NCBI RefSeq assembly: GCF_017565405.1
Contig: NZ_JAGEKR010000016.1
Coordinates: forward strand, 186,001-250,000
Source: Allobranchiibius sp. CTAmp26
Lineage (GTDB): Bacteria; Actinomycetota; Actinomycetes; Actinomycetales; Dermatophilaceae
Length of the DNA stretch: 64,000 nt
Reading direction: 5' to 3'
Both the position numbers and the translations under genes were made by a program. This document shows, piece by piece, positions 7,063 through 54,993 of the stretch (its first letter is position 1; the number at the start of each line of letters is the position of its first letter). The notes under the pieces are model-generated. The model worked only from the letters and a program-made list of their open reading frames with translations. It did no database searches and was not told where the DNA came from.

Positions 7063-7063
7063 G

Positions 7064-7486: not shown

Positions 7487-7496
7487 CCCGCGACCC

Positions 7497-7556
7497 TGAC
7501 GCAGTTGTGTACGAAAGACACAGGTCTACCTGCGTCCCTCGTGCACAACTGCGTCA
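7497..7556. terminator. Long inverted repeat between convergent genes
   Basis: Arms 7497-7514 and 7539-7556 (TGACGCAGTTGTG core) match at 17 of 18 positions around a 24-nt loop. The element sits at the convergent junction of the membrane-protein gene and the alpha/beta hydrolase gene. There is no U-tract; bidirectional terminator function is inferred from position and stem length. Confidence 0.65.
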
Positions 7557-7593
7557 CCGTCGGGCAGCCGGGCAGTCAGGACAAGGGCCGAAC

Positions 7594-8358: not shown

Positions 8359-8359
8359 G

Positions 8360-10498
8360 TCACACCCCCCGGAAGATCGCCAGCGTCGCGGGTGGCACGT
8401 CGTACGCCGCCCCGACTGTCGTCTCTACCTGCGGCACGTCATCCACCCTTTCGAAACGGCTGTCCCACAGCAGTTTCCATGCCGACACCCCGGACTGTCC
8501 GGGCAGGGTGACCGAGGCGTCGTGCGCGCTGCCGTGGAAGAGCAGCAGCAGGCGGTCGTCGTCGATGTCCGCGCCGTCGAAGACGACGGACAGCGTGCGG
8601 GTGCGCCCGTCGTTCCACTGGTCCGCGGTGAGGAGACGGCCGTCGAGCGCATGCCAGTGCAGCGCCGGGAGGGCGTCACCGTCGACCGGGCTGCCGGGGA
8701 AGAAGTGCCGCTGGCGCAGCACCGGGTGACGGCGCCGCAGGTCGAGCAGGTGGCTCACCGTGTCGTTGAGGTCGCGCTGCCAGTCCGCCAGATCCCAGTC
8801 GTACCAGGAGATCTCACTGTCCTGGCAGTACGGGTTGTTGTTGCCGTGCTGGGTGCGACCGAATTCGTCGCCACCGGTCAGCATCGGCACACCGGCGGAC
8901 AGCAGCAGGGTGCCGAGCAGGTTGCGCATCGACCGCCGCCGCAGCGCCTCGACGCCCTCTGTGGCGTCGACGTGACCCTCGATCCCGTGGTTCCAGGAGC
9001 AGTTGTTGTCGCTGCCGTCGCGGTTGCCCTCGCCGTTGGCGCCGTTGTGCTTGGAGTTGTACGCCGTGAGGTCGGCCACGGTGAAGCCGTCGTGCGCTGT
9101 CACGAAGTTGATCGACGCGAGCGGTCCGCGCCGCGAGTCGCGGAAGAGATCGGCCGATCCGGCGATGCGGGTGCCGAGTTCACGCACCCCGTGGCCGTCC
9201 TCGCCGGCCGCGTCGCGCGCGAGGTCGGGCAGCCAGAAGGTGCGCACGGTGTCGCGGAACCGGTCGTTCCACTCACCGAACGGCGGCGGGAACTGCCCGG
9301 TGCGCCAGCCGTGGATGCCGAGGTCCCAGGGCTCGGCGATGAGCTTGACGTCCGAGAGCACCGGGTCGGTGCGCAGCGCCATCAGGAACGGGTGGTCGGG
9401 GTGGTAGCCGTCGTCCCGGCCGCGCGCGAGGGCCACCGCCAGATCGAAGCGGAAGCCGTCGACGTGCATCTCCTGCACCCAATAGCGCAGCGAGTCCAGC
9501 ACCATCCGCACGGTGATCGGGTGCCGCAGGTCGAGGGTGTTGCCGCAGCCGGTGACGTCGATGTCGTCGCCCCGCTCGTCGAGGCGGTAGTACGCGCGAC
9601 TGTCCAGCCCGCGCCACGCCAGCGTCGAACCGCCGGGCGCGCTCTGCTCGCAGGTGTGGTTGTAGACGACGTCGAGCAGCACCTCGATGCCGGCGGCGTG
9701 CAGCAGCTTGACCATGCCCTTGAACTCCGCCACGGCCTCGACCGGGTCGCTCGCGGCGGCGTACGGCAGGTGCGGGGCGAAGAAGCCCAGCGTGTTGTAG
9801 CCCCAGTAGTTGCTCATCCCGCGCTGTACGACGTGCGGCTCGGAGACGGAGGCGTGCACGGGCAGCAGCTCGAGGGTGGTGATCCCCAGGCGTCGCAGGT
9901 GCGCGATGGTCGCGGGGTGGGCCAGCCCGGCGTACGTGCCGCGCAGCTCCTGCGGCACCCCCGGCAGGTCGTGGGTCACGCCGACCACGTGGGTCTCGTA
10001 GATCACCGTGTCGCACCACGCGGTCATCGGCGCGCGCTCGTCGCCCCAGTCGAAGCCGTCGCCGACGACCACGCTGCGCGGGACGTACGCCGCGCTGTCC
10101 CGGTCGTCGCGCACGTCGGCAGGCTCGCCGACCGCCAGGGACTGGTCGACCACCGTGCCGTAGACCTCGGGGCGCCAGTCGACGGTGCCGTCCACGGCCC
10201 GCGTGTAGGGGTCGAGCAGCAGCTTGGCCGGGTTGTGCCGCTGGCCGTTCGCCGGGTCCCAGTCGCCGTCCACCCGGTAGCCGTAGCGCTGCCCCTGCGT
10301 CACACCCGCCACATGCGTGGACCAGGTGCCGTGCACGTGGCGCACCATCGGCACCTGGCGTTCGGCACCGGCGTCGTCGAAGAGGCACAACTGCACCCCG
10401 GTGGCATGGCCCGCGTAGACCGCGAACTCGGCGCCGTCGCCGGTGAGGGTGGCGCCGTACGGCGGCGGGACGTGGTCGGGGCGGCGCAGGGCGGGCAT
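8360..10498 (-). CDS. glgX: Glycogen debranching enzyme GlgX
   Basis: GH13 isoamylase-type enzyme hydrolysing alpha-1,6 branches of phosphorylase-limit glycogen. 712 residues, normal for the family. The N-terminal CBM48-like domain (GDGAEFAVYAGHATGVQLCLFD) is followed by the catalytic barrel. Conserved region LLDVVYNHT, nucleophile region VDGFRFDLA, acid/base region LIAEPWDLG and the third acidic site VTAHDGFTVADL are all present. A GDEFGRTQHGNNNPYCQDSE motif typical of GlgX follows. The ATG at 10498 is preferred because the longer upstream frame is antisense to the YbjN gene. It works with the glgP at the window start. Confidence 0.93.
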   Translation of the reverse strand: MPALRRPDHVPPPYGATLTGDGAEFAVYAGHATGVQLCLFDDAGAERQVPMVRHVHGTWSTHVAGVTQGQRYGYRVDGDWDPANGQRHNPAKLLLDPYTRAVDGTVDWRPEVYGTVVDQSLAVGEPADVRDDRDSAAYVPRSVVVGDGFDWGDERAPMTAWCDTVIYETHVVGVTHDLPGVPQELRGTYAGLAHPATIAHLRRLGITTLELLPVHASVSEPHVVQRGMSNYWGYNTLGFFAPHLPYAAASDPVEAVAEFKGMVKLLHAAGIEVLLDVVYNHTCEQSAPGGSTLAWRGLDSRAYYRLDERGDDIDVTGCGNTLDLRHPITVRMVLDSLRYWVQEMHVDGFRFDLAVALARGRDDGYHPDHPFLMALRTDPVLSDVKLIAEPWDLGIHGWRTGQFPPPFGEWNDRFRDTVRTFWLPDLARDAAGEDGHGVRELGTRIAGSADLFRDSRRGPLASINFVTAHDGFTVADLTAYNSKHNGANGEGNRDGSDNNCSWNHGIEGHVDATEGVEALRRRSMRNLLGTLLLSAGVPMLTGGDEFGRTQHGNNNPYCQDSEISWYDWDLADWQRDLNDTVSHLLDLRRRHPVLRQRHFFPGSPVDGDALPALHWHALDGRLLTADQWNDGRTRTLSVVFDGADIDDDRLLLLFHGSAHDASVTLPGQSGVSAWKLLWDSRFERVDDVPQVETTVGAAYDVPPATLAIFRGV

Positions 10499-10534
10499 GG
10501 GCGCCAGCGTAAAGACCCCGGGTATCTTGACGGC

Positions 10535-11038
10535 ATGACTGATCCGACCTCGATGCCCAACTTCCCGCCACCCGCCGACGAGCACCCCCTGCGCGGGCGG
10601 GTGCTGGACGTCCTGCAGGACATGCAGGCGCAGCCCGACATCGACGCCGATGGTGACGTCAGCTTCAACGTGCAGGAGCAGCAGCTCTTCGCGCGCTGCA
10701 CCGAGGGCGAGGTGAGCCTGCTGCGCATCTTCGGCCAGTGGCAGATCACCGAGGACATGCCCGACGACCTGGTCAAGCAGCTGCTGGCGTGCAACGACGT
10801 CACGCTCAGCCTCAACATCATCAAGACCGGCATCGCCAACGGCACGCTCGTGGTCTCCGGCGAGCACCTCGTCCAGGACGGCGACAACCTGGAGATGATG
10901 GTGGCCTCCACGACGCAGATGGTGCTGCAGGCCGTCCAGCTCTGGCACCAGACGGTGCTGGGGGAGGGCCCGCACGTCGCGAACACCGACCCGAGCGAGC
11001 TGCCCGGCCCCGACGAGAACCCCGACGGCGAGGTCTGA
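10535..11038 (+). CDS. YbjN-domain protein
   Basis: 167 residues of the YbjN family, a type III secretion chaperone-like fold of unclear role in stress and motility regulation. The body has the family pattern with VSFNVQEQQLFARCTEGEVSLLRIFGQW, then DLVKQLLACNDVTLSLNIIKTGI and a long amphipathic stretch ending MVLQAVQLWHQ. The acidic Pro-rich C-terminal tail looks disordered. TATCTT lies 7 nt upstream of the ATG, consistent with a leaderless transcript. It is divergent from glgX. The enoyl-CoA hydratase starts 2 nt after its stop. Confidence 0.78.
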   Translation: MTDPTSMPNFPPPADEHPLRGRVLDVLQDMQAQPDIDADGDVSFNVQEQQLFARCTEGEVSLLRIFGQWQITEDMPDDLVKQLLACNDVTLSLNIIKTGIANGTLVVSGEHLVQDGDNLEMMVASTTQMVLQAVQLWHQTVLGEGPHVANTDPSELPGPDENPDGEV

Positions 11039-11040
11039 GG

Positions 11041-11841
11041 GTGACCGAGGCACGATCGACGTACGGGGAGTTCGTCTCCCTGGACGTGGCGGACGGCATC
11101 GGTGTGGTGCGCATCGACCGCCCGAAGATGAACCCGTTGAGCGGTGAGGTCCAGGAGGGCCTGGCCGCCGCGGCGGTGGAGGTCTCCGGCCGCGACGACG
11201 TCTCGGCGGTCATCCTCTACGGCGGCGAGAAGGTGTTCGCCGCGGGCGCCGACATCAAGGAGATGCAGACCCTGGAGTACGTCGACATGGTCACCCGCGC
11301 TCCGCGGCTGCAGGCCTGCTTCGCCGCGATCGCGGCCATCCCTCAGCCCACGGTCGCGGCCATCGCCGGATACGCGCTCGGCGGCGGCTGCGAGCTGTCG
11401 ATGACCTGCGACTTCCGGATCGCCGCGAACGACGCCAAGCTCGGTCAGCCGGAGATCCTGCTCGGGATCATCCCCGGGGCCGGCGGCACCCAGCGCCTCA
11501 CCCGCCTGGTCGGACCCGCGCGAGCCAAGGACATCGTCTTCACCGGCCGGATGGTGCCGGCGACCGAGGCTCTGCAGATCGGGTTGGTCGACGAGCTCTG
11601 CGAGCCGGGCTCCGTGCTCGAGGCGGCCAAGGCGCGGATGAGCCGGTACGTCGGTGGCCCCCGGGTCGCCCTGCGCGCCGCCAAGGAAGCCATCGACCGG
11701 GGGCAGGACGTCGACCTCGACACCGGCCTGGCGATCGAATCGGCTCTGTTCGCAGGACTGTTCGCGACGCAGGATCGCGCGACGGGCATGGCGTCGTTCG
11801 TGCAGGAAGGTCCGGGCAAGGCGCGCTTCGCCGGACGCTGA
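11041..11841 (+). CDS. Enoyl-CoA hydratase/isomerase (crotonase family)
   Basis: 266 residues, with GTG start 2 nt after the YbjN stop. Crotonase signatures are the CoA/oxyanion region KVFAAGADIKEM, the second oxyanion region GYALGGGCELSMTCDFRIAA, and the catalytic stretch LGQPEILLGIIPGAGGTQRL holding the first catalytic Glu. The position aligning with the second catalytic Glu of rat mitochondrial hydratase (MEMVLTG) is Asp here (KDIVFTG), so hydratase activity might be altered. etfB follows after 160 bp, which supports a fatty-acid beta-oxidation context. Confidence 0.87.
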   Translation: MTEARSTYGEFVSLDVADGIGVVRIDRPKMNPLSGEVQEGLAAAAVEVSGRDDVSAVILYGGEKVFAAGADIKEMQTLEYVDMVTRAPRLQACFAAIAAIPQPTVAAIAGYALGGGCELSMTCDFRIAANDAKLGQPEILLGIIPGAGGTQRLTRLVGPARAKDIVFTGRMVPATEALQIGLVDELCEPGSVLEAAKARMSRYVGGPRVALRAAKEAIDRGQDVDLDTGLAIESALFAGLFATQDRATGMASFVQEGPGKARFAGR

Positions 11842-11860
11842 GAACCGCGGCGAGCAACCT

Positions 11861-11876
11861 GTTACTCGCCAGTAAC
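11861..11876. promoter_or_regulatory. TTACT-4-AGTAA palindrome upstream of etfBA (candidate operator)
   Basis: Perfect 6-bp arms GTTACT/AGTAAC around CGCC, in the 160-bp gap between the enoyl-CoA hydratase and etfB. A possible -10 (TACCCT, 11886-11891) follows at a spacing that would place the palindrome over the -35. This is typical of a TetR-family operator, but no regulator is encoded nearby. Confidence 0.4.
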
Positions 11877-12001
11877 GTTGTGGCGTACCCTGGATGGTCG
11901 AGCCTGCGGGACCGTGCCGGGTTCGCCGTACGACGCGCCGTACGACCCGCGTCACCGCGTGACACCAGTTATCGAGCACCACGTCAACGAAGGGCAAGGA
12001 C

Positions 12002-12781
12002 ATGAACATCGTCGTCTGTGTCAAGTACGTGCCGGACGCGCAGAGCGACCGCACGTTCAGTGACGACCACACCACCGACCGCACCAACGTCGACGGCCTC
12101 CTGTCGGAGCTCGACGAGTACGCGGTCGAAGAGGCGCTGAAGCTCGTCGAGGCCGGCGAGGGTGAGGTCACCGTGCTCACCGTCGGCCCCGAGGTCGCCG
12201 TCGAGGCGGTCAAGAAGGCACTGAAGATGGGCGCCCACAAGGGTGTGCACGTCTGCGACGACGCGATCCACGGGTCGGACGCCGGCGCCACCTCGCTGGT
12301 GCTCGCCAAGGCCGTGGAGAAGATCGGCAAGCCCGACCTCGTGCTGACCGGCCTGGCCTCCACCGACGGCACCATGAGCGTCGTACCGGCCATGCTCGCC
12401 GAGCGCCTCGGCCTGCCCCAGGTCACCCAGGTCTCCGAGCTGTCGGTCGCTGACGGGTCCGTTAAGGGCCGCCGCGACACCGACATCGCATCCGAGACCG
12501 TCGAGGCGTCGCTGCCCGCCCTCGTGGGCGTGACCGACCAGATCAACGAGCCGCGCTACCCCTCGCTCAAGGGGATCATGGCCGCCAAGAAGAAGCCGGT
12601 CGAGACGTGGTCGCTGTCCGACCTCGGTCTGGACGCCGCGCAGGTCGGCTTCGAGGGCTCCTGGACCAAGGTCGTCGACGTCACCCAGCGTCCGGCCCGC
12701 GAGAAGGGCGAGGTGCAGCCGGACGAAGGCGACGGCGGCACCAAGCTCGTGGAGTTCCTGAACAAATCCAAGCTCGTCTGA
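12002..12781 (+). CDS. etfB: Electron transfer flavoprotein subunit beta
   Basis: 259 residues. ETF passes electrons from acyl-CoA and other flavoprotein dehydrogenases to ETF-quinone oxidoreductase. The family N-terminus NIVVCVKYVPDAQSDRTF is present, with the AMP-binding region around GAHKGVHVCDDA and the C-terminal arm VETWSLSDLGLDAAQVG. The signature around VGVTDQINEPRYPSLKGIMAAKK is intact. The start is supported by an AAGGAC before the ATG. The alpha subunit follows 33 nt downstream after its own AAGGAG, and the pair ends at a strong hairpin. Expression is probably controlled at the 160-bp upstream gap. Confidence 0.95.
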   Translation: MNIVVCVKYVPDAQSDRTFSDDHTTDRTNVDGLLSELDEYAVEEALKLVEAGEGEVTVLTVGPEVAVEAVKKALKMGAHKGVHVCDDAIHGSDAGATSLVLAKAVEKIGKPDLVLTGLASTDGTMSVVPAMLAERLGLPQVTQVSELSVADGSVKGRRDTDIASETVEASLPALVGVTDQINEPRYPSLKGIMAAKKKPVETWSLSDLGLDAAQVGFEGSWTKVVDVTQRPAREKGEVQPDEGDGGTKLVEFLNKSKLV

Positions 12782-12814
12782 CGCAGCGACACCTCAGAAG
12801 GAGACGTAACACCC

Positions 12815-13774
12815 ATGGCTGAAGTCCTCGTCCTGGTCGACCACACCGACGGTGCGGTCAAGAAGACCTCCGCGGAGCTGCTCACGATCGCCCGTCGGAT
12901 CGGTACGCCGTCCGCCGTCTTCATCGGCTCGCAGGTGGAGGCCGCCCGGCCCCGTCTCGCGCAGTTCGGTGCCGAGAAGGTCTACGTCATCGACAACGCC
13001 GACGTCGCCGACTACCTCGTCGCGCCGCTCGCCGAGGCCCTCGAAGCCGTGGTGAAGCAGGCCGGCGACGTCGCGGCGATCCTCGTGCCCACCAGTGGCA
13101 CGAACAAGGAAGCCGCCGCCCGTCTCGCGGTCAAGCTCGAGTCGGGCCTGATCACCGACGCGCAGGACGTGCAGGCCGGTGACGACGGCATCGTGGTGAC
13201 CCAGACGGCGTTCGCCGGCGGTTACACGCTGCAGGGCGTGGTCACCCAGGGCACCCCGATCATCACCGTCAAGCCGAACACCACCCCGCCGCAGGCCTCC
13301 CAGGCCGGTGCGCAGGTCGTGCCGGTCGAGCTGACCGTGTCCGACACCGCCAAGGGCGCGAAGATCACCGAGGTCCAGGAGAAGAAGAAGTCCGGTCGCC
13401 CGGAGCTCACCGAGGCCGCGATCGTGGTCTCCGGTGGCCGCGGCACCGGTGGCGACTTCTCCCCGGTCGAAGGCTTCGCCGACGCGCTCGGCGCGGCGGT
13501 CGGTGCCTCCCGCGCCGCCGTCGACGCCGGGTGGTACCCGCACAGCAACCAGGTCGGCCAGACCGGCAAGCAGGTCTCGCCGCAGCTGTACGTCGCGTGC
13601 GGCATCTCCGGCGCGATCCAGCACCGCGCGGGCATGCAGACCTCCAAAACGATCGTGGCCGTCAACAAGGACGAAGAGGCCCCGATCTTCGAACTGGTCG
13701 ACTTCGGCATCGTCGGCGACCTGTTCAACGTGCTGCCGCAGGCCACCGAGGCCGTCAAGCAGGCCAAGAGCTGA
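12815..13774 (+). CDS. etfA: Electron transfer flavoprotein subunit alpha
   Basis: 319 residues, partner of EtfB. The N-terminal domain ([22 protein letters not shown]) pairs with the beta subunit. The C-terminal FAD-binding domain shows [13 protein letters not shown], then [37 protein letters not shown] and the closing [20 protein letters not shown]. These contain the flavin contacts known in the family. A strong AAGGAG lies 15 nt before the ATG. A terminator hairpin starts 20 nt after the stop, ending the etfBA unit. Confidence 0.95.
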
Positions 13775-13794
13775 CGCTCGCTCCACCCGCACGT

Positions 13795-13825
13795 CGCCCC
13801 TTGCACCTCGTCGGTGCAGGGGGCG
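13795..13825 (+). terminator. Terminator hairpin after etfA
   Basis: Arms CGCCCCTTGCACC and GGTGCAGGGGGCG (one G-T wobble) enclose the 5-nt loop TCGTC. A poor U-tract (GTCGT) follows, as is usual for actinobacterial terminators. Confidence 0.75.
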
Positions 13826-13867
13826 TCGTACGTCTGCGACACGTCCGACCGGTGCGAGGATGTCGGG

Positions 13868-14407
13868 ATGGTCGCCCAGGTCGTCGCCGTCCACGTCAGC
13901 GGCGTGCACGAGTTCAGCAAGCAGCCCGCCGCCAGCATCGTGCTGGACGAGGGGCTCGGCGTCCGCGGCGACGCGCACTACGGCGTCACGGTGCAGCATC
14001 GATCGCGGGTGGCCAGAGATCCGAGTGAGCCCAACCTGCGTCAGGTGCACCTGATCCCCGTCGAGGTGCTCGAGGAGCTGGGGCGTGCCGGGTACGACGT
14101 CGCGCCGGGTGACCTCGGCGAGAACATCACCACCCGCGGCGTGGCCCTGCTCGACCTGCCGGTCGGCACTCGGCTGACGATCGCGGAGGCGACCGTGACG
14201 GTGATGGGCCTGCGCAACCCGTGCCGGCAGATCGAGGACTTCCGCCCCGGTCTGCTCAAGCGACTGGTGCGCACCACCCCGGACGGGCAGGTCGAACGTC
14301 TCGCGGGCGTGATGGGGGTGGTGTCGCGCGGGGGCACCGTGTCGGACGGCGATCCGATCGCGGTGCAGCCGCCGCCCGGGCCGGCGATGCCCCTCACCCG
14401 CGTCTGA
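13868..14407 (+). CDS. MOSC-domain protein
   Basis: 179 residues forming a stand-alone MOSC (molybdenum cofactor sulfurase C-terminal) domain. Family features are the N-terminal [18 protein letters not shown] strand, [22 protein letters not shown] and the conserved Cys in [16 protein letters not shown] domains handle persulfide sulfur for molybdenum or other metal-sulfur sites. That may relate to the cysteine desulfurase at 16.5 kb or the molybdo-oxidoreductase at 59 kb, but adjacency does not prove it. The ATG at 13868 is chosen because sequence upstream runs into the etfA terminator. A 51-bp repeat array follows. Confidence 0.83.
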
Positions 14408-14421
14408 GGTCGGCCGCTCGC

Positions 14422-14829
14422 CGTTTGGGCCCGCTTGGTCCCAAACGTGCGCCCACCGTCGTACCAAGCCGTCGTTTGGGCCCGCTGGGTCCCGAACGCG
14501 GCCCCGCGGCCGTCCCGAGCCGTCGTGTGGGCCCGCTGGGTCCCGAACGCGGCCCCGCGGCCGTCCCGAGCCGTCGTTTGGGCCCGCTGGGTCCCGAACG
14601 CGGCCCCGCAGCCGTCCCGAGCCGTCGTGTGGGCCCGCTCAGTTCCGAACGTGCGCCCACCGTCGTACCGAGCCGTCGTGTGGGCCCGCTCGGTCCCGAA
14701 CGTGCGCCCACCGTCGTACCGGGCCGTCGTGTGGGCCCGCTCGGTCCCGAACGCAGCCCGCAGCCGTTCGCAGGTTGCCGTCTGGGCCCGCTCGGCCCCG
14801 AACGTGCGCCCACCGTCGTCGTACGGGGC
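14422..14829. repeat. Tandem array of eight 51-bp units (minisatellite)
   Basis: Eight contiguous units begin CGTKTGGGCCCGCT; they show no spacers. Units 2-4 are nearly identical, while 1 and 5-8 diverge in two sequence versions. Each unit holds an imperfect inverted repeat around CCGCT (GTTTGGG...CCCAAAC, cleanest in unit 1). The period is a multiple of three, so long meaningless frames remain open on both strands. The array fills the gap between the MOSC gene and the F420-type oxidoreductase gene. Confidence 0.92.
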
Positions 14830-14873
14830 CGGACCGGCTCGCAGCGGGCGCGTTCGCCTGACACGCTGGGGGC

Positions 14874-15338
14874 ATGAGTCCCAAGGTCGCCACCACCACC
14901 CACGTCGACGCCTCCGCGCTCGCCGATTTCGTCCGTCCTCGGCACCGGTTCGTGCTGATCACCACGCGCAAGGACGGCTCGACCCAGGCGTCGCCGGTCA
15001 CCGGGGGCGTCGATGCGCAGGGTCGCCTCGTGATCTCCTCCTACCCCGAACGCGCGAAATCCCGCAACGCCGCACGCGATTCGCGGGTGAGCGTGCTGGT
15101 GCTGTCCGAGGAGTTCGATGCCGAATGGGTGCAGGTCGACGGCGACGCGGAGGTGCTGTCGGGCGATGCCGCGATCGAGCCGCTCGTGGAGTACTTCCGA
15201 GTCATCTCCGGCGAGCACTCCGACTGGGACGAGTACCGCGAGGCCATGCGCCGGCAGGGCAAGTGCCTGATCCGTGTCACCCCCGTGCGCTGGGGCCCGA
15301 TCGCGACCGGCGGCTTCCCGCCGCGGCTCGCGGACTGA
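14874..15338 (+). CDS. PPOX-class F420/flavin-dependent oxidoreductase
   Basis: 154 residues with the split beta-barrel pyridoxamine-5'-phosphate-oxidase-like fold common among F420-dependent proteins of actinobacteria. It shows RHRFVLITTRKDGSTQASPVTGGVD, then RLVISSYPERAKSRNAARDSRVSVLVL and the closing VTPVRWGPIATGGFPPRL. The cofactor and substrate are not determined; F420 is the usual assumption for this subgroup. The start ATG lies 44 nt after the tandem array and the stop is 2 nt before a perfect palindrome. Confidence 0.8.
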   Translation: MSPKVATTTHVDASALADFVRPRHRFVLITTRKDGSTQASPVTGGVDAQGRLVISSYPERAKSRNAARDSRVSVLVLSEEFDAEWVQVDGDAEVLSGDAAIEPLVEYFRVISGEHSDWDEYREAMRRQGKCLIRVTPVRWGPIATGGFPPRLAD

Positions 15339-42625: not shown

Positions 42626-42677
42626 CACACCGTCGGTGAGCGTGCCAGCCCTCAATGCCTGCGAAGGCTGGGGGCCT
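42612..42677 (+). promoter_or_regulatory. ilvB attenuator hairpins
   Basis: A hairpin GGCACGC / GCGTGCC (42612-42646) starts within the leader codons. Its 3' arm overlaps the terminator stem CCAGCC / GGCTGG (42645-42671), which is followed by GGGCC and a T-run. The two are mutually exclusive at their overlap, consistent with a pause/terminator attenuation switch before ilvB. Confidence 0.75.
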
Positions 42678-42725
42678 TTTTCATGCCATGTTCCAGCAGG
42701 GTCAGGACCGAACGCGAGGACAACG

Positions 42726-46155
<3,430 letters not shown>

Positions 46156-46168: not shown

Positions 46169-46201
46169 GAAGGCCGCCACCCGGGCAGGGTGGCGGCCTT
46201 C
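46169..46201 (+). terminator. ilvBNC terminator
   Basis: Perfect 13-bp arms GAAGGCCGCCACC and GGTGGCGGCCTTC with a 7-nt loop, 13 nt after the ilvC stop. Its right end touches the start of the first 68-bp repeat. Confidence 0.9.
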
Positions 46202-46265
46202 GTCGTACGAGATGTCACTTTCGGAGGGTGATCGGGCGTCCGCACCCTCCGAAACCGACATCTCG
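46198..46265. repeat. 68-bp palindromic repeat, family D copy 1
   Basis: Identical to copy 2 at 48262-48329 at 66 of 68 positions. It contains 23-nt inverted arms (46208-46230 and 46243-46265; CGAGATGTC...TTTCGGAGGGTG) around a 12-nt loop. It lies between ilvC and the exonuclease-TerD gene. Confidence 0.9.
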
Positions 46266-46360: not shown

Positions 46361-48253
46361 ATGATTCTCGACGCAGTTGGTCCGTTGGGGTCCCAGGTCT
46401 CGACCTGTTATCCACACGATTACGCCGTCGTTGACGTGGAGACGACCGGTCTCGCTTCCGCGACGGACCGAGTGGTGCAGATCGCGGTCACACAGATGGG
46501 CGCGGACGGCGCCATCGGTGAGTCCTGGTCGACTCTGGTCGACCCCGGGCGCGATCCTGGTCCGACACACGTCCACGGTCTGACGGCGGCTGATCTACGC
46601 GGCGCACCACAGTTTGGAGCCGTCGCGGGGCCCCTGTCCGACCTCTTGTACGGGCGGGTCCTCGTTGCCCACAACGCAAAATTCGACTGGTCGTTCCTGC
46701 AAGCGGAGTTCGGAAGGGGGCGACACGATGTCGCCATCGAACGCCGGCTCTGCACTATGGCGTTGACCCGACGACTCAATCTCAACGTCCCCAACCTCAC
46801 GCTCGGAACACTTGCAAACTACTGGGGAGTGTCCCAGCACCGCGCACACGACGCTGTCGACGACGTCCGGGTGCTGGTGGAGGTGCTGCGGCTCGAACTC
46901 GTCATGGCCTATCAGATGGGCCTCGACCTTCCCCTCACGATCGACAGCCGAATCCCGGTGGGGTCTCTGTATCCGACGCCGGCACCCCGGGCAGAGAAGT
47001 GCCCGTGGTTGTGGCCCGGAGAGTGGCAGCTTGGTCGACAGCTGGTCCAGGGCATGAAGGTGGTCGTCACGGGACCGACTGCGGTCGATCGCTCGGAATT
47101 GATGCGGGACGCCACCGCTGCCGGACTTGACGTGATGAATTCGGTCAGCTCGCGGACGAGCGTGGTGATCTGCAACTCCGATCAGTCATCGACGAGGAAG
47201 TTCGCCCAGGCCGTGCGTCTCGGCATACCGCTGATATCGGAGCCGGACTTCCGGCGAATGCTTGGTTCAGTCCGTCCGGGGACCCCCCTCATGCGTGCTC
47301 TCGGCCGGACAGATATCGATCCCACGGGTATCGAGGCGACGGTGGAACGCCGAGTGCGTTCTGAGCAGAGCTCGCGAGCCACGCCGGTCCCTGGTCCCGA
47401 TACGCCGGAGCACGCTGTCGGCGACGGCGGGGTCACTGGGCGCAATGTGATCGGTCCCGGAGACCGCGTCCTGGTGCTCGGTGGCTCGCATGAGCAGTGT
47501 CTGCGCGTTCGGCGGCGGGTCATGGCGCTCGGGGCGCAGCCGGCGGTAAGGCTGACTGCGTCCATTTCTCACGTCGTGATGTTGGGTCGAGCCGATCAGG
47601 ACCCGCGGCTGGCGCGTGCCCGCGAGATGGGCGCGTGCATGCTTCGTGGCGAATCATTCGTCGTCGAAGAACCTGCCAGACCGCTTGCGGTCACGGAGCA
47701 GACGCCAGCGAGCGAGAGCGCGGCGGTGCACGGTGGCGTCCAGCTGCCGCGGGGTGGTGTCATCGACCTCCCGGGAGGTAAGCAGTTCGCGCTCACGGTC
47801 GAGTGGGATTCGAATCTGCTGCGCGGCGAAGTGGACATCGTCGGGTTCGTACTCGATGAGAGGGCCGCTGTGGGGTCCGACGAAGACTTCGTCTTCTACA
47901 ACCAGTCCAAGCACCCGTCAGGTGCCCTTGCGCTGGGCTTGGACATCAGCGGCGAGGTCACCGCTGAGGTCGACCCACGACTGTTGCCTGAACCTCGGTG
48001 CATCCGAATTGCCGCGTCGCTCGATGGCGATTGTTCGTTCGGCGACGTCGGCGCGCTTGAGCTCACGCTGCGTTCGAGCCTCGGAGAACCCATCGCATCG
48101 ACGACGATCGATGCAGCGACGTCGGAGACGTCGCTGCTATTGGCCGACTTCTACCTCCGCGGCGACGTGTGGCGGTTCCGTTCTATCGGTCAGGGATACG
48201 AGCGAACATTGGCGGAGCTCGCGCGGCAGTACGGGGTCGAGGTCGAAGGCTGA
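46361..48253 (+). CDS. DEDDh exonuclease - BRCT - BRCT-like - TerD fusion protein
   Basis: 630 residues. A DnaQ-like 3'-5' exonuclease domain occupies residues about 20-185: ExoI VVDVETTG (D25, E27), ExoII VAHNAKFDW (D109), ExoIII HRAHDAVDD (H163, D168). A BRCT domain at 228-303 (GMKVVVTGPTAVDRSEL) has the ligase-type fold signature. A second BRCT-like segment is at 366-440 (DRVLVLGGSHEQCLRV). A TerD domain at 458-630 shows FALTVEWDSN, then GSDEDFVFYNQSKHPSGAL and WRFRSIGQGYERTLAEL. TerD domains bind calcium and belong to tellurite/stress-response systems. Codon use is lower in GC than its neighbours, and 68-bp repeats flank it. It may process nucleic acid under stress. Confidence 0.88.
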   Translation: MILDAVGPLGSQVSTCYPHDYAVVDVETTGLASATDRVVQIAVTQMGADGAIGESWSTLVDPGRDPGPTHVHGLTAADLRGAPQFGAVAGPLSDLLYGRVLVAHNAKFDWSFLQAEFGRGRHDVAIERRLCTMALTRRLNLNVPNLTLGTLANYWGVSQHRAHDAVDDVRVLVEVLRLELVMAYQMGLDLPLTIDSRIPVGSLYPTPAPRAEKCPWLWPGEWQLGRQLVQGMKVVVTGPTAVDRSELMRDATAAGLDVMNSVSSRTSVVICNSDQSSTRKFAQAVRLGIPLISEPDFRRMLGSVRPGTPLMRALGRTDIDPTGIEATVERRVRSEQSSRATPVPGPDTPEHAVGDGGVTGRNVIGPGDRVLVLGGSHEQCLRVRRRVMALGAQPAVRLTASISHVVMLGRADQDPRLARAREMGACMLRGESFVVEEPARPLAVTEQTPASESAAVHGGVQLPRGGVIDLPGGKQFALTVEWDSNLLRGEVDIVGFVLDERAAVGSDEDFVFYNQSKHPSGALALGLDISGEVTAEVDPRLLPEPRCIRIAASLDGDCSFGDVGALELTLRSSLGEPIASTTIDAATSETSLLLADFYLRGDVWRFRSIGQGYERTLAELARQYGVEVEG

Positions 48254-48331: not shown

Positions 48332-50344
48332 TCACTGGGAGGTCGTGGGCGCCGGGGTCGTCGGGGTGGCGGGAGTGGTCGGCTTGTAGCCGGCCGCGGA
48401 GTAGATGGTGGGCATCAGCCAACCCCACACGATCTTCCCGCCCGCCACGGTGTAGTGCACCCCGTCGCTGCGGATCTTGACCCCGTCGATCACGTCCAGC
48501 GGCTTGCCACCCGGGCACAGCTTCGATGCGACGTCGGCGATGCGCACCCGCCCGGGGTGCTGCTGGGCGAACGTCGCGAGGACGGCGTTGACGGCCTTCC
48601 CTCGGTACGCGGCGTTTCGGATCGGTGAGATGTCGACGCCTGCCACCACCGAGGAAGTCCAGTCGTAGCACGGCACGTTGGGGATGACGACCTTGGAGTT
48701 CGGACCGAGATGCGCCAGTGCCTTGTTGAGGTAGGACAGCAAGTACGCCGCGTACGCCGGGGTGCCGGCGTTCACGATCGAACCCGCCGGGGTGACGTGG
48801 TCGAAGACCTCCCAGCCCCCCAGGCTGAGCAGGACGACGGGATTCTTGTCACGCTGCAGGTGCGAGGTCCAGCCCGGGTAGAGATCCGAGCACTCCGGCG
48901 CAGCCTGCGCGGTCTGCTTCTTGCCGTAGATCGCGAGTTGCTGTGGCATGAGCCCGCACCCGAAGACGGCGTTCCCGTCGAGGCCCACCTGAGGGAAGGT
49001 CGATTGCGGGAAGCTGAACTCCAGCGAGATGCCGACGGAGTCGCCGAGCACTAGGACGCGGACGGGCTTGTTGACGTCCATCTGGCCGACGCCGTAGCTC
49101 TTGCCGGTCTGGCCCTGGACGAGAGGGTTGCCGCTCGCGCTTGACGTCGTGAGGATGACGGCGAGCGCGGTCACCGGCAGGACGAGCGCCCCGGTCAGGG
49201 TCCCGCCGAGGGTGCCGATCCACTTGCGCAGCCCATGGATGCGGATCGGGTTCTCCACGAGATAGAACGAGGCCGCGCCGGCGGCGAAGCTCAGCGCGAA
49301 TCGCAGCAGGAACAGGCCGGGGCCGCCGAATCCGACCCGTTTCGGGGTGAGCATCACGAAGATCGGCCAGTGCCAGAGATAGAGGCCGTAGGAGATCTTT
49401 CCGATCCAGGCGAACGAGCGGAAGCCGAAGATCGCGGCGATCGGTCCTTCCTGGTCGAGCTCGACGACCGCGATGACCGCGAGGGTGGCGAGCACGAAGA
49501 CGAAGAACCCGCCGCGCCAGGTGAAGTCGTTCTGATAGCTGACGAAGAGGAAGAAGAAGGCCATCACGGCCATCCCCACCCCGCCGATGACGGTCAGACG
49601 CCGATAGTCGCGGGTCAGGCGGCGGCGCGGCGCGTAGCTGAGGTAGACCGCCAGCGCGCTGCCGAGCAGCAACGACTGCGCGCGGCAGTCGGTGCCGTAG
49701 TAGATACGGGACGGGTCACCGCCGGGCTGGTAGAGCCAGGCCATCCATACGGCGGACAGGACCGACAGCCCCACCAGGATCTGGGTGATCCGGCGCCGGT
49801 TGCCCCGGGTCAGGGCGATCAGGGCGATCATCAGCGCCGGGAGCACGAAGTAGAACTGCTCCTCGATCGCGAGGGTCCACATGTGCCGGTACGGCGAGGG
49901 GTCGCCGTACTGCTGGAAGTAGGACTCTCCCTCGGAGATGAAGTGCCAGTTGGCGTAGTAGAAGACGGTGGCGATGCCGTCCGAGCGCATGGTGGCCCGC
50001 GCGTACTGGTCGAGCACGTAGGGGCAGATCACCGTGATGCCGATGACGGCGAGCACGAGCCCGGGCAGCAACCGGCGGGCGCGCCGTACGTAGAAGCTCG
50101 CCAGGCTGATCGAGCCCCACTTGCGATTCTCGGCGATCAGGAGACCCGCGATGAGGTATCCGGACAGGACGAAGAAGACATCGACCGAGTAGAAGCCGCC
50201 CGTCGGCAGGTTGTTGGTGGCGTGGAAGATCATCACCAGGACGATGGCGAGGGCACGCACACCGTCCAGCGCCGGCCGGTGCCGCTTCTTCGGTGCGCTG
50301 GCGGAGCGCTTGTGGGCGGCTTCCTTCGCGGCGAGCGTCGTCAA
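48332..50344 (-). CDS. OafA-like membrane acyltransferase with C-terminal SGNH domain
   Basis: 670 residues. The N-terminal acyltransferase-3 domain has about ten helices (residues 25-390), with RALAIVLVMIFHATN, SVDVFFVLSGYLIAGLL, RRARRLLPGL and TLAIEEQFYFVLPAL. A periplasm-facing SGNH/GDSL-like domain follows, with VLVLGDSVGISLE and catalytic-type DGVHYT near the end. This layout matches OafA/YrhL O-acetyltransferases that acetylate envelope polysaccharide. The TTG start follows AAGAGA. The C-terminus is Thr/Pro-rich. Confidence 0.88.
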   Translation of the reverse strand: MTTLAAKEAAHKRSASAPKKRHRPALDGVRALAIVLVMIFHATNNLPTGGFYSVDVFFVLSGYLIAGLLIAENRKWGSISLASFYVRRARRLLPGLVLAVIGITVICPYVLDQYARATMRSDGIATVFYYANWHFISEGESYFQQYGDPSPYRHMWTLAIEEQFYFVLPALMIALIALTRGNRRRITQILVGLSVLSAVWMAWLYQPGGDPSRIYYGTDCRAQSLLLGSALAVYLSYAPRRRLTRDYRRLTVIGGVGMAVMAFFFLFVSYQNDFTWRGGFFVFVLATLAVIAVVELDQEGPIAAIFGFRSFAWIGKISYGLYLWHWPIFVMLTPKRVGFGGPGLFLLRFALSFAAGAASFYLVENPIRIHGLRKWIGTLGGTLTGALVLPVTALAVILTTSSASGNPLVQGQTGKSYGVGQMDVNKPVRVLVLGDSVGISLEFSFPQSTFPQVGLDGNAVFGCGLMPQQLAIYGKKQTAQAAPECSDLYPGWTSHLQRDKNPVVLLSLGGWEVFDHVTPAGSIVNAGTPAYAAYLLSYLNKALAHLGPNSKVVIPNVPCYDWTSSVVAGVDISPIRNAAYRGKAVNAVLATFAQQHPGRVRIADVASKLCPGGKPLDVIDGVKIRSDGVHYTVAGGKIVWGWLMPTIYSAAGYKPTTPATPTTPAPTTSQ

Positions 50345-50798: not shown

Positions 50799-51863
50799 AT
50801 GACCACCACTTCCACACCCACTGCGTCGGACTCCATCGACCTGGCCGTGATCGGCGGGGACGGCATCGGCCCCGAGGTGGTCGCCGAGGGCCTCAAGGTC
50901 CTCGAAGCGGTCAGCGCGGCGAAGATCGCGCGCACCGAGTACGACCTGGGCGCCCGTCGTTGGCACGCGACCGGCGAGATCCTCCCGGAGTCGGTCGAGG
51001 ACGAGCTGCGCGGGCACGACGCGATCCTGCTCGGTGCCATCGGCGACCCGTCGGTGCCCAGCGGGGTCCTGGAACGCGGGCTGCTGCTCAAGCTGCGCTT
51101 CGACTTCGACCACTACGTCAACCTGCGCCCGTCCGTGCTGTTCCCCGGCGTGCGCTCGCCGCTGGACGTGGCCCGTGTCGCGCCGGACGGCATCGACTTC
51201 GTCGTGGTCCGGGAAGGCACCGAGGGTCCGTACACCGGCAACGGGGGGGCGCTGCGGGTGGGCACCCCCGCCGAACTCGCGACCGAGGTCAGCGTCAACA
51301 CCCGGTTCGGCGCCGAACGCGCCGTGCGGGACGCGTTCGCCCGCGCCCAGGCCCGTCCGCGCAAGCACCTCACGCTGATCCACAAGCACAACGTGCTGTC
51401 GTACGCCGGCCACCTGTGGCGTCGTACGGTCGAGGAGGTCGGCGCGGAATTCCCCGAGGTCAGCACCGACTACGCGCACGTGGACGCCGCGACCATCTAC
51501 CTGGTCACCGACCCGGGCCGCTTCGACGTCATCGTCACCGACAACCTCTTCGGTGACATCGTCACCGACCTGGCGGCCGCGGTGACCGGCGGGATCGGCC
51601 TGGCGGCATCGGGCAACATCAACCCCGAGCGCACGGCACCGTCGATGTTCGAGCCGGTGCACGGCTCGGCCCCCGACATCGCCGGGCAGGCCAAGGCCGA
51701 CCCGACGGCGACGATCCTGTCGGTCGCGATGCTGCTGGAGCACCTGGGTCGGCCCGACGAGGCGCGGCGCGTCCAGGAGGCGGTGGCCGCCGACCTGGCG
51801 GGGCGTGGCGACGCTCCCCGCTCGACCACTCAGATCGGCGCCGCCATCGCGGAGCGGGTATGA
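50799..51863 (+). CDS. leuB: 3-isopropylmalate dehydrogenase
   Basis: 354 residues; oxidative decarboxylation in leucine synthesis, NAD-dependent. Conserved features are [31 protein letters not shown] (substrate Arg/Tyr loop), the Lys in [14 protein letters not shown], the metal-binding [13 protein letters not shown] and the NAD-binding [13 protein letters not shown]. These fit the short actinobacterial type. ilvE follows 82 bp downstream with its own GAGGAG. leuA and leuCD are not in the window. Confidence 0.95.
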
Positions 51864-51945
51864 CGCCCGGGCGTAACCTGGCCCCACCGCCGCACTTGTA
51901 GCGCGCGTCACACTCCGACGCGCCGTACGCCCCGAGGAGACCGCC

Positions 51946-53040
51946 ATGGCACTGACCTTCGATGTGACCCGACGCCCCGACGTCGTCAGCGACACCGACC
52001 GTGCGGCGGTGCTCGCCGATCCCGGCTTCGGCAACCACTTCACCGACCACATGGTGACGGTGACCTGGACCAAGGGTGACGGCTGGCACGACGCCCGCGT
52101 CACGCCGTACGGCCCGATCGCGATCGACCCGTCGGCCGCCGTCCTGCACTACGCGCAGGAGATCTTCGAGGGGATGAAGGCCTACCGGCACGCCGACGGC
52201 TCGGTGTGGACCTTCCGGCCCCAGCAGAACGCCGCCCGGTTCGCCCGCAGCTCGGCACGGATGGCGCTGCCGGTGATGCAGGAGGCGGACTTCATCGATT
52301 CGTTGCGCGCCCTGGTGACCGTGGACGAGGCCTGGGTGCCGCCCGCGGACGGCGGCGAGACCTCGCTCTACCTGCGGCCGTTCATGTTCGCCTCGGAGCC
52401 GTTCCTCGGGGTTCGGCCGGCCAACGAGGTCACCTTCTGCGTGATCGCCTCACCGGCGGGCGCGTACTTCAGCGGCGGCGTCAAGCCGGTCTCGCTCTGG
52501 ATCTCCACCGACTTCGCCCGGGCGGGTGACGGAGGCACCGGCGCGGCCAAGTGCGGCGGCAACTACGCCTCGTCCCTGGCGGGTCAGCTCGAGGGCATCG
52601 AGCACGGCTGCGACCAGGCCGTCTTCCTGGACTCCTCGTCGCACACCTACATCGAAGAGCTCGGCGGGATGAACCTGTTCTTCGTCTACAAGGACGGCCG
52701 CCTGGTCACCCCGGAGCTGACCGGCTCGATCCTCGAGGGCGTCACCCGCGACTCGATCCTGGAGCTGTCCAAGGACCTCGGCCTGCAGCCGGAGGAGCGC
52801 CGCATCCCCATCCAGGAGTGGAAGGACGGGGCCGCATCCGGCGAGATCGCCGAGGTCTTCGCGTGCGGTACGGCGGCCGTGGTCACCCCGGTCGGCGAGC
52901 TCAAGTGGGACGGCGGGTCGTGCGACCACCGCCGCGACGGGCACGACGACGCGATCGCGTTGAAGATCCGCTCGTCGCTGCTGGACATCCAGTACGGCCG
53001 GGTCGAGGACTCGCGCGGCTGGCTCACCCGCCTCGCCTGA
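51946..53040 (+). CDS. ilvE: Branched-chain amino-acid aminotransferase
   Basis: 364 residues, fold type IV PLP enzyme; last step of valine, leucine and isoleucine synthesis. The PLP lysine is K202 in TGAAKCGGNYA. The conserved EIFEGMKAYRHADG, ELGGMNLFFVYKDG and EVFACGTAAVVTPVG segments are present. ATG follows GAGGAG. leuB lies upstream; a nested palindrome directly follows the stop. Confidence 0.95.
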   Translation: MALTFDVTRRPDVVSDTDRAAVLADPGFGNHFTDHMVTVTWTKGDGWHDARVTPYGPIAIDPSAAVLHYAQEIFEGMKAYRHADGSVWTFRPQQNAARFARSSARMALPVMQEADFIDSLRALVTVDEAWVPPADGGETSLYLRPFMFASEPFLGVRPANEVTFCVIASPAGAYFSGGVKPVSLWISTDFARAGDGGTGAAKCGGNYASSLAGQLEGIEHGCDQAVFLDSSSHTYIEELGGMNLFFVYKDGRLVTPELTGSILEGVTRDSILELSKDLGLQPEERRIPIQEWKDGAASGEIAEVFACGTAAVVTPVGELKWDGGSCDHRRDGHDDAIALKIRSSLLDIQYGRVEDSRGWLTRLA

Positions 53041-53056
53041 CCGGTCGGGCAGCTCG

Positions 53057-53128
53057 CCGAGTGGCATACATATCTATCGAGTGCACCTGTCCCAGGTATG
53101 CCACTCGAAGGACATGTATGCCACTCGG
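53057..53128. repeat. Nested palindrome, family E copy 1
   Basis: Outer arms CCGAGTGGCATACAT (53057-53071) and its complement (53114-53128) are perfect. The inner TCGAGTGCACCT and AGGTATGCCACTCGA arms reuse the same GAGTGGCATAC word, so the word occurs four times in alternating orientation. It is 16 nt after the ilvE stop. Copy 2 is at 60802-60873. Confidence 0.82.
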
Positions 53129-53192
53129 CGTGTGATCACCTGGTGAGACGGTGATGTCGGATGGTGGACGGGACACAACGGACGGTGCGACG

Positions 53193-53252
53193 ATGCTGCG
53201 CGTGATGACCTTCGGGTCCGCGGTCACCCCCGCGGCGACGATTACCGACTAG
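53193..53252 (+). CDS. Candidate cimA leader peptide (MLRVMTFGSAVTPAATITD)
   Basis: A 19-codon frame ending Thr-Ile-Thr-Asp, followed after 23 nt by a strong intrinsic terminator and then cimA. CimA feeds isoleucine synthesis, and the Thr and Ile codons just before the stop could sense isoleucine or threonine supply. There is no strong ribosome site and no run of control codons, so the assignment is less secure than that for ilvB. Confidence 0.45.
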   Translation: MLRVMTFGSAVTPAATITD

Positions 53253-53275
53253 CGCGTCGGACGACCCGGCGCGCT

Positions 53276-53302
53276 ACCTCCCGTTACCCCGGGAGGTTTT
53301 TT
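53276..53302 (+). terminator. Intrinsic terminator/attenuator before cimA
   Basis: Perfect 8-bp arms ACCTCCCG and CGGGAGGT, 6-nt loop, then TTTTTT. It is the best U-tract in the window, 84 nt before cimA. An upstream GCGCG/CGCGC pairing (about 53252-53274) could be the competing hairpin. Confidence 0.82.
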
Positions 53303-53385
53303 CGTCCCCGGGCATCACCCACGCGCCGGAGACGGCGCCGGATCGGGATTCACCAGCCCGCCCCGCCCCACCCGAAAGGCCCGCG

Positions 53386-54993
53386 ATGAGCGGCTTCGAC
53401 CTCTACGACACCACCCTGCGCGACGGCGCCCAGCAGGAGGGCCTGCACCTGACCGTCGACGACAAGCTGGTCATCGCGCACCTCCTCGACGAGCTGGGTG
53501 TGGGCTTCATCGAGGGCGGCTGGCCCGGTGCCAACCCGAAGGACACCGAGTTCTTCCGGCGGGCCCGCACCGAGTTGACCCTGCGGAGTGCGCAGTTGGC
53601 CGCCTTCGGGAGCACCCGGCGCGCCGGCGTACGCGCCTGCGACGACCCGCAGGTCGCGGCCCTGCTCGAGGCGCAGACGCCGGTGGTGACGCTCGTCGGC
53701 AAGTCGCACGTGCGCCACGTGACCGATGCCCTGCGCACCACTCCCGCAGAGAACCTCGCGATGGTCGCCGACACGGTGGCCCATCTGGTCGACCACGGCC
53801 GCACGGTCTACCTGGACGCGGAGCACTTCTTCGACGGCTACGAGGCCGATGCGGCGTACGCGATCGAGGTGGTGCGGGTGGCAGCCGAGGCCGGCGCGGC
53901 GGCGGTCGTGCTGTGCGACACCAACGGCGGGATGCTCCCGCACGACATCGAACGCATCGTCGCCGAGACGGCCCAGCGCACGGGTATGCGCCTGGGCATC
54001 CACTGTCACAACGACAGCGGCTGTGCCGTCGCCAACAGCATCGCTGCGGTGCGGACCGGCGCGACGCACGTGCAGGGCACCGTCAACGGGTACGGCGAAC
54101 GCACCGGCAACGCCGACCTGATCGCCGTGACCGCCAACCTGCAGCTCAAGCTCGGCATGCGGTTGGTGAGCGAGGAGCAGCTCGCGACTGCCGTGCACGT
54201 GAGCCATGCCGTTAGCGAGATCACCAACCTCCCGCCGTTCGAGCGCGCGCCGTACGTCGGTGCTAGCGCGTTCGCGCACAAGGCCGGCCTGCACGCGAGC
54301 GCGCTGCGGGTCGACCCCGACCTCTACCAGCACATCGACCCGGCGTCGGTCGGCAACGAGATGCGCACGCTGGTCTCGGACATGGCGGGCCGTGCGAGCA
54401 TCGAGCTGAAGGGCCGCGAACTCGGCTACGACCTCGCCGGGCAGCCCCGACTGCTCGCCGATGTGCTGCAGCGGGTGAAGGAGATGGAGGGCGCCGGGTG
54501 GAGCTTCGAGGCCGCCGACGCGTCGTTCGACCTGCTCCTGCACGAGGAGGTGCACGGGCGCCCCGCGGCGCTCTTCCGGCTCGAGTCGTGGCGGGTGCGC
54601 ACCGACGCCGAGGGCAGCGGGAGTGCCCTGTCGGAGGCGACCCTGGAGTTGAGCGTCGACGGGCAGCCGCAGGTCGCGGTCGGCCACGGCAACGGCCCGG
54701 TCAACGCCCTGGACCACGCGCTGCGGCACGCCCTGACCCCGATCTACCCGCGCCTCGCGGATCTGGAGCTCATCGACTTCCGGGTGCGGATCCTCGATGC
54801 CGACCACGGCACCGACGCGACCACCCGGGTGCTCATCGATACGACCGACGGCGACCGCACCTGGACCACGGTGGGGGTGGGCCCGAACATCGTGCACGCC
54901 AGCTGGATCGCCCTGGTCGACTCCTTCACCTTCGGGTTGTTGCGCTGCCCGGCGCGCGGCGGGCAGGTTCCCGTTCCCGCTGCGTCCATGTGA
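53386..54993 (+). CDS. cimA: Citramalate synthase
   Basis: 535 residues. Condenses pyruvate with acetyl-CoA to citramalate, giving a threonine-independent route to 2-oxobutyrate for isoleucine. HMGL-like TIM barrel at residues 5-280: YDTTLRDGAQQEG, CDTNGGMLPHDI, HCHNDSGCAVANS and GTVNGYGERTGNADL. The C-terminal LeuA dimer/allosteric domain contains FELLDASFDLLL-type sequence (EAADASFDLLLHEEVHG). Alpha-isopropylmalate synthase is the main alternative, but RDGAQQEG and VNGYGERTGNADL fit CimA. Regulation by the upstream leader region is likely. Confidence 0.88.
   Translation: MSGFDLYDTTLRDGAQQEGLHLTVDDKLVIAHLLDELGVGFIEGGWPGANPKDTEFFRRARTELTLRSAQLAAFGSTRRAGVRACDDPQVAALLEAQTPVVTLVGKSHVRHVTDALRTTPAENLAMVADTVAHLVDHGRTVYLDAEHFFDGYEADAAYAIEVVRVAAEAGAAAVVLCDTNGGMLPHDIERIVAETAQRTGMRLGIHCHNDSGCAVANSIAAVRTGATHVQGTVNGYGERTGNADLIAVTANLQLKLGMRLVSEEQLATAVHVSHAVSEITNLPPFERAPYVGASAFAHKAGLHASALRVDPDLYQHIDPASVGNEMRTLVSDMAGRASIELKGRELGYDLAGQPRLLADVLQRVKEMEGAGWSFEAADASFDLLLHEEVHGRPAALFRLESWRVRTDAEGSGSALSEATLELSVDGQPQVAVGHGNGPVNALDHALRHALTPIYPRLADLELIDFRVRILDADHGTDATTRVLIDTTDGDRTWTTVGVGPNIVHASWIALVDSFTFGLLRCPARGGQVPVPAASM

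Follow-up and report, generated by a model that had tools for sequence, protein, structure and literature searches.

What does a single protein do that joins a nuclease, two BRCT domains, and a TerD domain, and does it act as part of a Ter system? We addressed this question for a gene of Allobranchiibius sp. CTAmp26 that lies in a 64,000-nucleotide stretch (contig NZ_JAGEKR010000016.1, positions 186,001 to 250,000; hereafter the window), where a reading made from the sequence alone had proposed a self-contained DNA-damage or phage-response factor. We place about even weight on the fusion being a stand-alone accessory DNA-end exonuclease that is docked by its first BRCT domain (BRCT1), regulated or recruited through its TerD domain, and active outside a ter operon. 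What TerD does at the molecular level is, to our knowledge, not settled. A TerD domain that is fixed to a nuclease with assayable activity, has no ter neighbours, and is variably present offers a direct way to ask what its role is, and the fusion also ties DNA processing directly, at the level of domains, to stress proteins of the Ter type.

The fusion gene opens with ATG, contains zero internal stops, and encodes 630 amino acids (aa; Table 1). The domain content given by the sequence-only reading, namely an exonuclease, a BRCT domain, a BRCT-like segment, and TerD in one frame, agreed with results from Pfam and HHalign, with RNase_T and TerD both detected above their Pfam cut-offs. The five DEDDh residues that it had listed (D25, E27, D109, H163, and D168) are all at those positions, which together with the profile match identifies the window protein as a DEDDh 3'-5' exonuclease with predicted activity. 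In an alignment of 19 full-length proteins (window protein counted; the partial L022, L024, and L025 and broken copies were set aside), all five residues are kept in 18 proteins and E27 is present in all 19. The exception is L020 from Rhodococcus sp. CH91 (5941-7833), in which H25, H109, G163, and E168 replace four of the five DEDDh letters, with an inserted residue in the alignment near position 163. A full-length AlphaFold2 model (predicted local distance difference test [pLDDT] 77.1, predicted template modelling score [pTM] 0.49) has an exonuclease part that matches the DinG, PolC, DnaQ, and TREX exonucleases, with Z up to 23.3.

Comparison of residues 1-535 between the fusions of this genome (G000) and of a congener (G002) gave a nonsynonymous distance (dN) of 0.10, a synonymous distance (dS) of 0.86, and a dN/dS of 0.12, which shows purifying selection on the fusion protein. 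Eight nearby genes compared between the same two genomes have dS of 0.23-0.49 and dN/dS of 0.03-0.14; the high dS of the fusion reflects either faster drift or separate acquisition. That the frame is a chance product or artefact of long GC-rich sequence was ruled out by the Pfam matches, the 17 full-length relatives, and the dN/dS of about 0.12.

BRCT1 is of the RFC1/LigA type, the BRCT domains of LigA and RFC1 being its nearest. The solved chains that matched a profile of the BRCT region were all DNA ligases or RFC1 (10 of 10), and all matched on BRCT1. In VIA-align comparisons its modelled fold resembles RFC chain 7u19_A (Z 10.5, root-mean-square deviation [rmsd] 1.9, 79 aligned) and ligase chain 9a6z_B (Z 10.0, rmsd 2.3, 76 aligned). 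The pairs T237-G238 and T278-x-K280 presumably match the S/T-G and S/T-x-K residues that mark BRCT domains able to bind phosphate. Among the 19 aligned proteins, T or S occurs at 237 in 18, G238 in 19, T or S at 278 in 19, and K280 in 18, with L020 being the exception at both 237 (I237) and 280 (E280). L020 has thus lost nuclease and BRCT1 pocket residues together and has kept D492, D507, D509, and the other TerD invariants. This joint loss fits an exonuclease and a BRCT1 that act together.

The second BRCT-like segment noted from the sequence proved to be real (BRCT2). Its profile (residues 358-440) aligned with that of BRCT1 (residues 225-312) at 91% probability and E 1e-6 in HHalign, against less than 1% probability for each of three control profile pairs, and its fold best matched MCPH1 chain 2wt8_C (Z 8.8, rmsd 2.6, 72 aligned; VIA-align). 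VIA-align rates Z below 8 as common, and 8.8 is only modestly higher, such that the fold match alone is supportive rather than strong. Comparison of the full-length model with solved chains in VIA-align gave no BRCT chain among the 50 matches listed, all of which fell to one domain, and the BRCT region was therefore modelled apart (residues 216-440, pLDDT 82.7). This model matches the tandem-BRCT proteins TopBP1, Rad4, and BRCA1 in Foldseek, and its BRCT2 half is also matched by BRCA1 and XRCC1 BRCT chains. Over both repeats the rmsd against eukaryotic tandem BRCTs is near 15, indicating that the relative placing of the repeats in the model differs from that in the eukaryotic tandems.

In the TerD domain, D492, D507, D509, and W482 are kept in all 19 aligned proteins, and the fold is that of 3ibz (Z 18.7). 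Alignment of six fusion proteins with 3ibz, 2kxt, and free TerD proteins of the same genome revealed that the six lack the acidic GDNRTGxGDGDDE loop, which we take to be part of the TerD calcium sites. The loop is present in two of the three TerD proteins of a ter cluster on contig C2 and in a TerD protein on contig C21. Its absence makes the label "calcium-binding," which the sequence-only reading had applied to the fusion, doubtful, although, given the invariant D492, D507, and D509, one calcium site may survive.

A search of the 3.71-Mb genome (33 contigs, the window being on contig C8) returned five TerD matches. The cluster on contig C2 comprises three TerD genes together with PRTase, HAD, DUF475/TerC, and TelA genes, and the further TerD gene on contig C21 adjoins a MatE gene. 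The suggestion that ter partners are absent from this genome is therefore incorrect. The fusion does lie outside any visible ter cluster, as had been read: no ter gene was detected near it in the window, and no TerC, TelA, or TerB partner was found adjacent to it.

We scanned the neighbourhoods of 52 places that carry the fusion (20 Streptomyces-like and 32 others) with 18 reference proteins (phmmer, E 1e-8) over flanks extending up to 6-9 kb (less near contig ends). Not all 52 places are independent, some of the copies are broken or partial, and genes from the scanned loci were among the references; L193, L195, L197, L199, and L200 were left out as repeats of L010, L013, L019, L015, and L016, as was the remnant L209. 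At this threshold no free TerD was found beside the fusion at any of the 52 places, and 47 had no ter-type partner. This mostly solitary context fits the description of the fusion as self-contained. The remaining five places carry TerC (L011 and L021), DUF475/TerC (L214), TerB_C (L123), or vWA-TerF (L171). L011, where the gene caller chose the wrong strand, and L021 are Pseudonocardia loci whose TerC label comes from reading, a shared cluster, and a Pfam tally of two TerC members. A control was made for the Streptomyces-like places and not for the other 32; it gave a ter-type partner at 2 of 20 places and at none of 20 control stretches from that genus, a difference too small to count. A consistent ter association was rejected as a rule.

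Two places have DNA-processing neighbours, which we count in favour of a role at DNA ends. One is L171, a Streptomyces plasmid locus with SbcD, SbcC, and vWA-TerF followed by the fusion (vWA-TerF assigned by Pfam, SbcCD by reading). The other is L123 (G037, 2229-15167), which encodes a TerB_C protein, a BrxC/D ATPase (E 3.4e-116), a helicase, a UvrD-like helicase, the fusion, an RmuC with an Lsr2 DNA-binding tail, and a RAMA protein. No conserved partner gene emerged: among 142 called neighbours from 20 loci (shorter than 800 aa and at most four per side, which leaves out long ones such as SbcC in L171), the only cluster common to more than two loci was the fusion itself (19 loci). ParD-like proteins were 2 of the 142.

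Related fusions occur in other actinobacteria, as the sequence-only reading had believed. Full-length relatives were identified at 17 loci in Geodermatophilus, Klenkia, Actinomadura, Rhodococcus/Rhodococcoides, Pseudonocardia, and Nocardia, and further ones on a plasmid of Streptomyces sp. NBC_01340 and on a Nocardia farcinica replicon, the latter with a BRCT score just below the Pfam cut-off. Of 2,956 plasmid records with a match, two cover 80% of the query. The distribution is patchy, not one of universal inheritance. Among this genome and its near relatives the fusion is present in 3 of 38 (G000, G002, and G037), and the G002 copy is 82% identical to the window protein and has a frame broken near residue 540. 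In the wider samples the candidates scored per genome were 3 (396-genome phylum sample), up to 36 (genus of G313, taken as Rhodococcoides), and 13 (genus of G142, taken as Streptomyces), making the counts lower bounds. At E 1e-60, at least 23 of the 396 genomes in the phylum sample matched; counting this genome, 5 of the matches are full-length, and the other 18 cover the exonuclease-BRCT1 part alone. At least 18 of the 37 genomes in the genus of G313 carry the fusion; 17 of these copies span the model and that of G446 ends at position 558 of 585. A further 17 genomes of this genus have no match, G436 has a TerD remnant, and in G452 (L211, 1304-3815) a 2.5-kb insert of 50% GC interrupts the gene. 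That insert contains an open frame of 705 aa whose start is membrane-like. TelA exceeded the cut-off in none of these 37 genomes (one weaker match, G465), and other TerD genes are present in all 37. In the genus of G142 at least 15 of 101 genomes span the model and four more match in part, one of these, G521, encoding TerD within its single frame of 687 residues. At loci L193-L209 the fusion lies in a variable region, its flanking genes being common to only some genomes of the genus.

Phylogenetic reconstruction of the exonuclease domain (57 rows, 25 of them fusions) yielded three label changes versus a shuffled mean of 18.9, with 0 of 500 shuffles as low. Fusion rows mostly cluster by genus; Mycobacterium-like short proteins fall inside the fusion-rich part of the tree and Streptomyces-like short ones elsewhere, its deep forks being open and the program warning of several long branches. 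The pattern is consistent with an old fusion event, after which the gene or its C-terminal part was lost repeatedly and some transfer took place. The window protein belongs to a TerD-bearing branch of the exonuclease-BRCT proteins. BRCT-BRCT-TerD forms without the exonuclease also occur, as a 365-aa frame on a plasmid of Streptomyces sp. NBC_01445 (L296, 8013-9110) and as a 410-aa form in G517 (L313).

In the role that we propose, BRCT1 would dock at a DNA end, on either a 5'-phosphate or a junction, as suggested by its likeness to the BRCT domains of RFC1 and NAD-dependent DNA ligase and by its kept phosphate-pocket residues. The exonuclease would then trim the 3' strand, and BRCT2 would bind a partner. 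The C-terminal TerD would be a regulatory or docking module that couples the nuclease to a stress signal or to the other TerD proteins of the cell, acting by something other than canonical two-site calcium chemistry. The gene would work outside a ter operon and would often be gained or lost. The exonuclease and BRCT steps draw on family knowledge and conserved residues, whereas we infer the TerD step; TerB and TerD have been viewed as possible signal-sensing domains (PMC7824862). Several findings weigh against this role. The acidic loop is missing and TerD could be inert, the scarcity of ter-type partners (none at 47 of 52 places) leaves a link to Ter systems that comes from the domain alone, and decayed or partial copies are common, as in G002, G452, and G436 and in four of the 19 G142-genus matches, which fall short of spanning the model, so that the function of the fusion is dispensable.

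A more specific version, which we regard as improbable, is that the gene provides Ter-type DNA-end surveillance on its own: BRCT1 would read 5'-phosphate ends, the exonuclease would degrade the 3' strand, and the loop-less TerD would gate this activity. A nucleoside-like signal has been proposed for Ter systems, and the gating ligand would perhaps be such a signal instead of the calcium pair. If so, the sensing and DNA destruction of multi-protein Ter- or Shango-type loci would be packed into one mobile accessory gene.

The accessory DNA-end role must be weighed against a serious rival, although one that we hold to be somewhat unlikely: that the fusion is an ordinary repair paralogue of a short exonuclease-BRCT protein, to which TerD and BRCT2 are incidental additions. 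Kinship is close. The best NCBIfam match of the window protein is NF004719 (PRK06063, "DEDDh family exonuclease"; residues 14-310, E 3.7e-105, 351.5 bits versus a cut-off of 389, so that the equivalog threshold is not reached), an exonuclease and BRCT model of 331 positions relative to which BRCT2 and TerD are additions of the window protein. Short relatives of this kind (e.g., 329 and 351 aa) occur in Mycobacterium-like and Streptomyces-like genomes, the tree also indicates kinship, three genomes (G142, G196, and G368) encode both forms, and most places have no ter genes nearby. However, several positions in TerD equal the catalytic ones in invariance across the 19 proteins, and TerD persists in L020 despite the lost nuclease residues. 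In two genera, moreover, about half or more of the genomes lack the fusion, which argues against a routine role. That the protein is decaying or non-enzymatic in this genome would be consistent with the broken frame of the G002 copy and with a dS above that of the eight nearby genes, but the intact window frame with all of its catalytic residues and the low dN/dS make this highly improbable.

A single-gene phage or plasmid defence effector, in which the BRCT pair and TerD would detect infection-related ends or a Ter-type signal and the exonuclease would degrade invading DNA, is possible but weakly supported, and we consider it unlikely. Patchy presence with decay is in keeping with such a role, as are a GC content at third codon positions of 0.75 versus 0.86-0.93 in adjacent genes and four distinct places in one genus where a Zeta-toxin gene lies within the fetched flanks. 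The L123 copy stands beside RmuC and a Shango-like set (PADLOC SngB 2.8e-122, SngC 2.7e-189). Shango is an anti-phage system of a TerB-like protein, an ATPase, and a helicase (PMC10250203), and TerB occurs in Shango and RmuC as a DISARM-accessory and Shield component (PMC10952713). However, the L123 TerB_C protein (28 bits versus a cut-off of 26.3) has no SngA match in PADLOC, and at weaker E SngC matches a long helicase in every one of the 44 genomes searched. Matches below 1e-100 occur in five of the 44: two genomes that lack an intact fusion and three that have one, in which the match is adjacent to it (G037) or lies at a distance of about 23 kb (G433) or about 79 kb (G448). The Shango link was rejected, as 3 of 23 genomes with an intact fusion versus 2 of 21 without is no enrichment. 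The window protein also matches the PADLOC defence candidate PDC-S48 (E 6e-73) through its exonuclease and BRCT parts and not through TerD. We found no paper on PDC-S48. Two control short exonuclease-BRCT genes reach 1.2e-60 and 1.5e-74, and on the basis of this control the model was discarded as evidence of defence. Neighbourhoods are furthermore unlike one another: no Pfam family occurs in more than 3 of the 142 neighbours, and of 61 PADLOC models matched at E 1e-10, each of the 25 listed matched one member only. These members included reverse-transcriptase-like and mad3 proteins. Among the 75 viral-contig matches listed (two peptide patterns), none spans more than the exonuclease or TerD part and none reaches both protein ends, none of 56 phage records attains 80% coverage of the query, and in the window the gene sits among amino-acid biosynthesis genes. 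For the phage-response role put forward in the sequence-only reading, neighbourhood support is anecdotal and PDC-S48 unspecific.

TerD fusions and exonuclease-BRCT proteins were already known, and it is their combination that appears to be new. We found no published description of an exonuclease-BRCT-BRCT-TerD fusion in a search that did not cover Anantharaman et al. (2012), the likeliest place of an earlier mention. The fusion TerD shares the fold of TerD proteins (PF02342; solved as 3ibz and 2kxt/2kxv) and passes the Pfam cut-off; it differs from them in its missing acidic loop, its C-terminal place in a nuclease, and the absence of a ter operon. Other proteins join TerD to another module, including vWA-TerF (L040), AIM24 (L067), CAP (L027), and HNH (L029), but their partner domains and order differ from those of the window protein. 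L029 (6058-7797, Nocardia sp. AG03) comprises TerD, DUF2510, and a C-terminal HNH nuclease and is another TerD-nuclease fusion. Shango likewise ties a Ter-type domain to DNA processing, and in G037 one gene separates a Shango-like set from the fusion; unlike the fusion, Shango has three genes, TerB instead of TerD, and no exonuclease. A further related arrangement is that of a 408-aa plasmid protein of Paenibacillus cellulosilyticus (L173, 7998-9221), which carries RNase_T and then TerD in one frame and also lacks the acidic loop. It has no BRCT match, and its exonuclease is 27% identical to that of the fusion and sits on a very long tree branch; it is possibly a separate joining event. L173 is annotated only as "TerD family protein," and an ATP-dependent DNA ligase and a site-specific integrase are encoded a few kb upstream.

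Table 1. Features of the fusion gene and its surroundings in the window (positions are those of the window).
Feature	Positions	Strand	Evidence
Upstream flank, reads as ilvB, ilvN, ilvC (names by reading of sequences)	42636..46155	+	
73-nt palindromic repeat, 23-nt arms, 12 nt between, 5' of the gene	46193..46265	.	
Whole fusion gene, exonuclease-BRCT-BRCT-TerD, 630 aa	46361..48253	+	Open frame, Pfam, alignment
DEDDh 3'-5' exonuclease domain (predicted), residues 23-176	46427..46888	+	Pfam RNase_T (E 1.1e-22, 81.7 bits, cut-off 24), fold matches, residue counts
BRCT1, residues 230-294	47048..47242	+	Pfam BRCT (E 8.9e-8, 32.7 bits, cut-off 21.3), profile search of solved chains, fold, residue counts
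Low-confidence linker, residues 316-361	47306..47443	+	AlphaFold2 pLDDT <50
BRCT2, residues about 369-430	47465..47650	+	HHalign against BRCT1; fold against MCPH1/BRCA1/XRCC1 BRCT
TerD domain without acidic GDNRTGxGDGDDE loop, residues 460-624	47738..48232	+	Pfam TerD (E 4.7e-20, 72.3 bits, cut-off 25.3), 3ibz Z 18.7, alignments
73-nt palindromic repeat, 96% identical to the first, 3 nt past the stop codon	48257..48329	.	
Downstream flank, acyltransferase-3 domain fused to SGNH domain	48332..50344	-	Pfam
Further flank, reads as leuB, ilvE, cimA-like gene (names by reading)	50799..54993	+	

At the corresponding locus of a congener (G001), leuB directly follows ilvC, and in G006 and G005 a gene of the size of the acyltransferase is present and the fusion is absent. 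The two palindromes that flank the gene were considered as ends of a mobile cassette, which was not borne out; related palindromes were identified at five distinct places in this genome, with others in both congeners. They are possibly a genus-level element of repetitive extragenic palindromic (REP)-like or terminator type. In G001, two palindromes separated by about 1 kb flank a gene of 298 aa (L135).

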